Part shown: positions 17,827 to 40,230 of the stretch, piece after piece
How the letters are laid out: each line of letters begins with the position of its first letter
How positions within the stretch are numbered: position 1 is the stretch's first letter
Origin: a bacterium
GTDB lineage: Bacteria > Patescibacteriota > Saccharimonadia > Saccharimonadales > Saccharimonadaceae
Assembly (NCBI GenBank): GCA_030431855.1
Contig: JAUIII010000008.1
Span: 1 to 42,924, forward strand
Direction of reading: 5' to 3'
DNA length: 42,924 nt
The notes under the pieces: model-generated
Databases searched by the model: none
What the model was told of the DNA's origin: nothing
Seen by the model: the letters and a program-made list of their open reading frames with translations, nothing else
Translations under genes and position numbers: made by a program

Positions 17827-17855
17827 TTGACTTTTTTATCAATATGTGCTAATAT
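17827..17855 (+). promoter_or_regulatory. strong promoter TTGACT-17-TAATAT with TGC before the -10
   Basis: Same layout as 39731-39759 and 21845-21873. Confidence 0.8.
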
Positions 17856-17920
17856 TTTCATACTACGCCCAAGTATCCCTCGGGCGAGAGTCGCCCTTGC
17901 TTGTGCTTAAGGAGGACCCA

Positions 17921-18115
17921 TTGGCCACCAGGATCCGTTTCCACGGCGAGGGGCTGTTGGAGGTCGAAGACGACTACGACGTCGTGAAGGCGGCACACGC
18001 CAAGCGTGGCGAGAAGCCAGATGTCGAGTTCACGCACCGCCCTACTGGCGCGCGTGTCTTGGTCGATCTGACCACCGTGCAGTTCCTGCGTGAGCTTCGC
18101 ATGGACAAGAGCTAG
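17921..18115 (+). CDS. GC3-rich small protein A (64 aa), hypothetical
   Basis: SD AAGGAGG (17909-17915) 5 nt before TTG at 17921; the upstream ATG 17846 precedes the predicted TSS. By hand count about 53 of 65 codons end in G/C. Confidence 0.75.
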   Translation: MATRIRFHGEGLLEVEDDYDVVKAAHAKRGEKPDVEFTHRPTGARVLVDLTTVQFLRELRMDKS

Positions 18116-18135
18116 CTCACAAGAAAGGCGAGGCA

Positions 18136-18201
18136 TGCCCGCATCCGAACGCCTTCAGTCGAACTCCCGGGAGTTCCTGGGAGTCCGGCTGCGGGCGTTT
18201 G
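18136..18201 (+). terminator. GC-rich structured 3' UTR of cassette A
   Basis: CCCGCA...TGCGGG outer pairing and internal perfect palindrome GAACTCCCGGGAGTTC, then GTTTGATTT. Confidence 0.55.
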
Positions 18202-39730: not shown

Positions 39731-39759
39731 TTGACATTTTATTGTGTTTATGCTAAAAT
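39731..39759 (+). promoter_or_regulatory. strong promoter TTGACA-17-TAAAAT with TGC before the -10
   Basis: TTGACA TTTTATTGTGTTTATGC TAAAAT. Confidence 0.85.
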
Positions 39760-39801: not shown

Positions 39802-40178
39802 ACAGGCAGACACGAGAGGACCAGTCATGCAGACCAGCACAGAAACGATCGTGTTCCGTCGGATCTCGCTCGAACCGCACGAGGAGTTCGACGTGCGTCT
39901 GAGGGGGTTCCCCCGATGGCGCGTGAACATGCTCGAGGTCACCGCGGCCTACATCACCGTGTACGGCGGCAAGGGCAACAACTCGCGGGGCTCATGCGTG
40001 AAGTTCGAGCACCGCTTCCGGGACGTCGATGACCTCCCGGGCATGCCGCACCACGTGGCTGTTGAGGTGCGTAGCGCCTTCAACGACCTCGGCCCACAGC
40101 AGGTCACCAGCTAGCTCTTCCGGAGCTGGACGAATATGACAAGCGGGCGCAGAGGACGTACCACTTGTGTCTGCCTGT
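39802..40178. repeat. perfect 12-bp inverted repeat bracketing cassette B ORF
   Basis: ACAGGCAGACAC 39802-39813 and GTGTCTGCCTGT 40167-40178. Confidence 0.9.
39827..40114 (+). CDS. GC3-rich small protein B (95 aa), hypothetical
   Basis: SD GAGAGGA 6 nt before ATG 39827; by hand count about 84 of 96 codons end in G/C. Confidence 0.8.
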   Translation: MQTSTETIVFRRISLEPHEEFDVRLRGFPRWRVNMLEVTAAYITVYGGKGNNSRGSCVKFEHRFRDVDDLPGMPHHVAVEVRSAFNDLGPQQVTS

Positions 40179-40194
40179 CAAATTCGTTTCACTG

Positions 40195-40230
40195 AAGTAT
40201 TCTCAATATTCTGGGAATACTTTTATTTTG
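40195..40230 (+). terminator. Rho-independent terminator of cassette B
   Basis: AAGTATTC...GAATACTT followed by TTATTTT. Confidence 0.7.

Follow-up and report, generated by a model that had tools for sequence, protein, structure and literature searches.

Does the short GC-rich reading frame upstream of trmD in a member of the Saccharimonadaceae belong to a defined class of genes, are the messages of such genes closed around the coding region by pairing of their untranslated ends, and does actinobacteria-like codon usage betray a host origin or a host-directed function? In the window, that is, the whole 42,924-nucleotide stretch analysed, this gene (cassette A; all cassette features given here lie on the forward strand) consists of a promoter TTGACT-17-TAATAT (17827-17855, with boxes at 17827-17832 and 17850-17855 and a 17-nt spacer), a 5′ UTR with hairpin-forming segments (17866-17896), a Shine-Dalgarno sequence AAGGAGG (17909-17915), a 64-codon ORF (17921-18115, from TTG 17921 to TAG 18113-18115) and a terminator-like GC-rich hairpin GCCCGCA...TGCGGGC (18137-18196). 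Promoter, Shine-Dalgarno sequence and ORF lie where the initial annotation had placed them, and its GC3 estimate of about 82% agrees with the value of 0.81 obtained here (0.69/0.38/0.81 at codon positions 1/2/3); the region of about 250 bp has 63-65% GC vs 47% in the window. The observation that this ORF stands far above its neighbors in GC3 is correct and applies equally to some 25 other islands of this genome. The proposed 5′ hairpin stands in part: CGCCC (17866-17870) and GGGCG (17882-17886) exist, but GGGCGA-GAG-TCGCCC (17882-17896) forms a tighter hairpin that competes both with this stem and with the long closing arm claimed for A.

The 64-aa product is an orphan. No family was detected in Pfam, PHROGs, PDB, phages, plasmids, GTDB contigs or 100 relatives, and a comparison with 399 Actinomycetota genomes, where a source had been suspected, gave matches at chance level. 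A beta-beta-alpha-beta-beta-alpha fold is predicted from the single sequence (pLDDT 69), and Foldseek returned no significant match to it.

In the window's own genome (G000) and a relative (G005), the region upstream of trmD carries a common promoter, 5′ UTR and terminator around unrelated ORFs, namely cassette A in the former and a 66-aa membrane protein in the latter (G010 denotes a congener; other G and L labels denote relatives or fetched stretches). The GGGCGA...CCCTT segment of the 5′ UTR of A aligns to the G005 scaffold, and the terminator-like hairpin is homologous to the end of the G005 cassette. Other ORFs occupy this position in G001, G013, G018 and OX335598; some species keep the promoter alone, others keep nothing, and the promoter box is common to relatives, cassette-less ones included. 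Other genera were sampled at trmD, motif and hammerhead loci, and cassette-like ORFs proved scarce around trmD in other lineages, where 281 kb yielded a single one. UTR elements are also common to two adjacent C15 cassettes and two G010 cassettes, the ORFs again differing.

The class of high-GC3 mini-genes, originally guessed from two examples, is real and much larger. Cassettes were identified with a codon-likelihood caller, a few more being added by hand; the caller yields 24 ORFs (29 per Mb) in the genome of the window, which was reassembled from fetched stretches (830 kb, GC 48%), 30 (38 per Mb) in G010 and, in the 394 kb of G001 and 400 kb of G005 covered, 5 and 1, respectively. Altogether, G000 carries about 25-30 scattered single-gene cassettes and G010 a similar number. 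The typical island comprises a strong TTGAC-17-TATAAT promoter, a 5′ hairpin, a Shine-Dalgarno sequence, a high-GC3 ORF and a GC-rich terminator hairpin; ten of the G000 cassette proteins belong to no Pfam or PHROG family. The computations show dispersed single-gene units in which a native AT-rich promoter and, often, a conserved UTR scaffold are combined with an exchangeable ORF. Cassette A, an isolated gene with its own promoter and terminator, GC3 of 0.81 and LLR of 23, owes its membership in this class to its coding, its promoter and the exchange of ORFs in its scaffold; closure plays no part in it. Composition alone might suggest misassembly or contaminating host DNA, but in independent genomes the cassettes run without a break into orthologous flanks, which makes this explanation vanishingly improbable and excludes the artefact by which the initial annotation would have been undone.

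With respect to the origin of the composition, synonymous codon frequencies of the cassettes correlate far better with those of Rhodococcus pRHL1 (r 0.954) than with those of the cell's own normal genes (r 0.340), a comparison that is partly circular because the cassettes were selected on codon use. Stop codons were not used in the selection, and they show TGA 53, TAG 10 and TAA 2 in cassettes vs TAG 188, TAA 158 and TGA 47 in own normal genes (a TGA share of 82% vs 12%), the figures for Rhodococcus being TGA 25, TAG 7 and TAA 1. This shift from TAG to TGA is GC-neutral; cassettes A and B both stop with TAG, unlike the TGA-rich class as a whole. The choice between C and G among GC-ending codons correlates with own normal genes at r 0.92 and with Rhodococcus at r 0.69 (8 points).

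For several cassettes, congeners carry an orthologue in synteny, and the flanks are continuous. The orthologous proteins are mostly 30-64% identical, compared with an average of 71% for normal genes, and GC3 stays near 0.8-0.95 on both sides. At fourfold sites of conserved residues, 285 of 364 are G or C in both species, with 87 C-G exchanges vs 56 GC-AT (pooled counts that include two nearly identical cassette pairs), whereas the same comparison of normal orthologues gives 23% GC in both, 8% C-G and 46% mixed; normal codons of the compared species differ at 57% of conserved residues. Furthermore, cassette ORFs are more strongly folded than expected from shuffling of synonymous codons (z -1.38 ± 0.24, n=44), compared with -0.35 ± 0.11 for normal genes and -0.40 ± 0.11 for Rhodococcus genes. 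Composition kept in syntenic orthologues with C-G exchange, together with the excess ORF structure, makes recent transfer alone an insufficient explanation. Of the suggested host origin, the actinobacteria-like codons are therefore upheld but a plain recent transfer does not suffice, and the computations show that this ORF composition is kept through vertical descent. Regional mutation bias was rejected, as promoters and flanks remain AT-rich; as far as the incomplete assemblies show, the tRNA sets look ordinary, which speaks tentatively against an explanation from lack of tRNAs.

Two explanations that keep the products at home have to be measured against these data. The cassettes could be captured actinobacterial or phage accessory genes, placed under native promoters for home use, for instance against the cell's own phages; the GC-rich coding would then be inherited from the source and renewed each time natural competence led to another capture. 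The Tad4, DUF6197 and NUDIX families are known from phages and actinobacteria, ORFs are swapped and sites empty at trmD, and G010 contains an ICE-like gene cluster, all of which is in keeping with capture. We nevertheless hold this explanation to be somewhat doubtful, given that syntenic orthologues hold GC3 near 0.8-0.9 with C-G exchange despite the 57% codon difference, that actinobacterial homologues could not be detected for most of the cargo, including A, and that the special UTRs and the ribozyme described below are left unexplained. Alternatively, GC3 might be selected for mRNA structure or stability at home, such as in long-lived messages of starved swarmer cells; the ORF structure beyond synonymous shuffles and the closed ends would fit, but the GC-neutral stop-codon shift would be left unaccounted for, as would cargo of the anti-Thoeris and alpha-CTD kinds, and we consider this very unlikely.

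As for closure, the example from which the idea arose does not sustain it. The claimed arms of A, TCGCCCTTGCTTGTG (17891-17905) and CACAAGAAAGGCGA (18118-18131), are present but weak: the best gapped 5′/3′ complementarity lies at the 6.6% level among partner-swapped pairs, perfect complementarity extends over no more than 6 nt, a length equalled by 206 of 300 shuffles, and the partition function assigns the arm pairs p about 0.1-0.5. The 5′ arm is not conserved, and its partner is absent, in the homologous G005 scaffold (the single homologue available at trmD), and cassette A has neither significant closure nor a ribozyme match. The closure claimed for cassette B, in contrast, is strong. Here, a promoter TTGACA-17-TAAAAT (39731-39759) precedes the arms ACAGGCAGACAC (39802-39813) and GTGTCTGCCTGT (40167-40178), which enclose a 95-aa orphan ORF (39827-40114, GC3 0.87; the predicted protein fold, at pLDDT 37, is unusable) and pair over 12 bp perfectly, with 0 of 300 shuffles doing as well and pair probabilities of 0.87-1.0. 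An intrinsic terminator-like hairpin with a T-rich tract (40197-40228) stands 3′ of the closing arm of B, where no hammerhead was found.

For the class as a whole, ranking of arms by RNAduplex proved to be confounded by UTR length and was replaced by local alignment with partner swaps and by perfect-run tests. Across 58 cassettes, own 5′/3′ complementarity exceeds that of partner-swapped pairs (z 3.4, permutation p 0.0005), and the perfect-run test at p<=0.01 retrieves 6 of 60 cassettes vs 0 of 55 normal genes. The scaffold of B, with the consensus TTTGACARRCAGAY...RTCTGYYTGTC, recurs around unrelated ORFs: the arm ACARRCAGAY and its post-stop reverse complement are found in B, in G000 C9-3.9k and C14-41k, and in the DUF6197 cassette of G010/G001, and 5 such arm pairs were observed vs a mean of 0.075 with shuffled motifs. 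In the closing stem of these four non-homologous cassettes, three of which were picked for complementarity and C14 by motif alone, 5 of 14 pairs are changed on both sides, and the covariation score of 0.381 was reached by 0 of 500 shuffles and compares with at most 0.115 in slid controls. Both arms were then recognized by their pattern in about ten further species among 101 relatives; the scaffold is seen in about a dozen relatives. Cassette B is accordingly a closed scaffold, with conserved arms and compensatory changes around an unrelated ORF, and the UTR covariation that the initial annotation had made a touchstone is present in its scaffold. As a class trait, closure is significant for the set and covarying in the B scaffold but fails for A; 5′/3′ pairing closes part of the transcripts, as the computations show.

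Inverted repeats that bound GC-rich cargo, unrelated from copy to copy, also allow the arms to be read as the terminal repeats of integron- or MITE-like mobile DNA, with closure as a by-product. Presence/absence variation and insertion beside tRNA genes are compatible with such mobility. However, the promoter lies outside the repeats and the TSS-to-arm distance is constant (33-36 nt in three cassettes), arm sequences vary between scaffolds with pairing retained, and a predicted self-cleaving ribozyme after the 3′ arm points to RNA, so that we find mobile DNA quite unlikely as the explanation of the arms. Closed cassettes lie directly 3′ of tRNA genes in L268, L270, L272, L276 and L279, which hints at an insertion preference. 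Separately, L269, L276, L277 and L280 contain a conserved potential micropeptide ...GKWIWVQ[TA], followed by GTGATGTTTTCCT, before the 3′ arm; the GKWIWVQ[TA] stretch is common to cassettes whose main ORFs are unrelated.

In other genera, a predicted type III hammerhead (RF00008) follows the 3′ arm (40.3, 35.4 and 30.8 bits). Of 396 Saccharimonadales genomes, 74 contain matches, the richest of them 12, compared with 1 of 14 control genomes; G000 itself has none. In the related cassettes the core is intact and scores are 30-50 bits, with E down to 1.9e-10 per genome, mostly under the Rfam curated cut-off of 48.5, which is exceeded in 3 of 396 genomes. When hammerheads were taken as the starting point, 11 of 19 same-strand upstream ORFs had GC3 >= 0.75 (median 0.78; local background mostly 0.45-0.77), and closing arms stood just 5′ of the ribozyme match at 8 of 22 loci (p<=0.017). 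The NUDIX cassette of G010 also ends in a hammerhead match. The ligase RtcB joins hammerhead-type ends; it was found in Corynebacterium and in 0 of 41 relatives, a detail that is suggestive only, and RtcB circularisation inside the donor is unsupported. Among the openly accessible papers searched, none treats hammerhead ribozymes and Saccharibacteria jointly.

Some of the cargo is recognizable. The product of the L269 cassette is Tad4 (E 3e-34), which inhibits type I Thoeris and shares 49-55% identity with proteins of Bacillus phages; Tad4 recurs in G611 with a hammerhead match after it. The L300 product resembles the alpha-CTD of RNA polymerase (E 1.2e-12), and other cargo consists of small membrane or basic proteins. 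Judging by sequence, cargo of the Tad4 and alpha-CTD type would make most sense in another cell, and together with the stop-codon shift it lends indirect support to a host-directed function.

We tentatively favor the view that the cassettes are made by the epibiont and adapted for translation in its presumed high-GC actinobacterial host, where the products would serve as effectors. The Saccharibacterial T4SS is essential and conjugation-like, without relaxase and coupling protein (PMC10633639, PMC12102498). This view draws on the density of cassettes in G000 and G010, their codon and stop-codon use, the kept GC3, the excess ORF structure, the exchange of ORFs at trmD, the covariation in B, the hammerheads, the Tad4 and alpha-CTD cargo and this relaxase-less T4SS. 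Against it count the promoters, which are of the genome's own type and so allow expression at home; the C/G choice, which tracks own genes; the islands that are plain transfers; the lack of closure and ribozyme in A and of hammerheads in G000; and the rarity of cassettes at the trmD locus elsewhere. Under host translation, closed, hammerhead-trimmed, highly structured messages would form a stable nucleic-acid cargo, possibly carried by the T4SS, although DNA or protein alone might be delivered instead, and would presumably be read by actinobacterial ribosomes; Tad4, the alpha-CTD-like protein and the small membrane and basic products might act in host takeover. A more specific version, in which Saccharibacteria send closed, hammerhead-trimmed mRNAs in host codons that the host translates into anti-defence and transcription-hijacking effectors, and which a host RtcB-type ligase could circularise, strikes us as unlikely.

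Several known systems offer partial parallels. Type III hammerheads have the CUGAUGA...GAAA core and three stems found directly after the 3′ arm of many related cassettes, but the matches here are mostly below cut-off and are tied to closed protein-coding units. Like phage morons and anti-defence genes of plasmid leading regions, the cassettes are small single genes with their own promoter and terminator and Tad4-type cargo; unlike them, they are scattered over conserved chromosomal loci away from any phage or plasmid, and have shared UTR scaffolds, vertically kept host-like codons and ribozyme ends. Integron gene cassettes likewise place promiscuous ORFs between inverted-repeat elements, whereas the present units are dispersed singly, each with its own promoter, arms on both sides of the ORF and, in relatives, a ribozyme; a non-systematic look at the stretches inspected revealed no array or integrase. 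Agrobacterium T-DNA might be a loose analogue, with donor genes suited to the expression machinery of the recipient, but no border repeats or relaxase have come to light for the cassettes, whose transfer is hypothetical. Hammerhead-processed viroid-like or circular RNAs and Tornado constructs also combine a ribozyme with a terminal stem joining the ends; the cassettes differ in being chromosomal and protein-coding, with only a 3′ ribozyme recognised and no RtcB in the relatives surveyed. The list of cassettes, with host-like coding, closed ends, ribozymes and anti-defence cargo, provides concrete candidates for two questions: by what means ultrasmall epibionts gain control of their hosts, and which cargo the essential relaxase-less T4SS transports. 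If the messages are indeed translated in the host, this would amount to mRNA delivery from bacterium to bacterium, for which we know of no precedent.

Ordinary transfers also occur among the GC-rich genes (NUDIX, Band_7, DUF6197, an ICE-like T4SS cluster and an NCS2-like permease). By eye, the GC-rich NCS2-type permease at G010 C1 715204-716679 and in G001 C6 (95% identical) looks plainly transferred, and the GC-rich cluster at G010 C1 269.9-281.3 kb (L095-L096), which encodes VirB4-like, VirB6-like, M23/endonuclease-like secreted and ParA-like proteins, resembles an actinobacterial integrative conjugative element. GC-rich secreted proteins with host-like codons are encoded at G000 C24 1.2-4.9 kb (L031) and G010 C1 733-738 kb (L148), one of them with LPDTG and LPSTP motifs.

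A few further candidate RNA features can be listed. A cassette with a structured leader of about 600 nt and a short ORF (G000 C19 7050-7880, L021; G010 C1 66.2-67.1 kb, L085) carries an anti-SD-like ACCTCCTTTC in the leader, and its ends are closed by the arms GACAGGAATGAT and GACGGGAATGAT, with one compensatory change between the species; a 16S-like GGATTAGATACCC in the C19 cassette is missing from the G010 orthologue and was judged a chance match. Close by, a conserved GC-rich island with a promoter and no convincing ORF (G000 C19 11240-11720, L021; G010 C1 70.7-71.1 kb, L085) may be a noncoding RNA with the motif ccATGGGGGARTGc. Finally, the window contains a SAM riboswitch (RF00162, 48.4 bits) at 2768-2871 on the reverse strand, a lysM-TM7 RNA (RF03005) is present in the same genome (L053 8255-8403), and a sub-threshold match to 6S RNA lies close to a closed cassette at L268 1725-1866.
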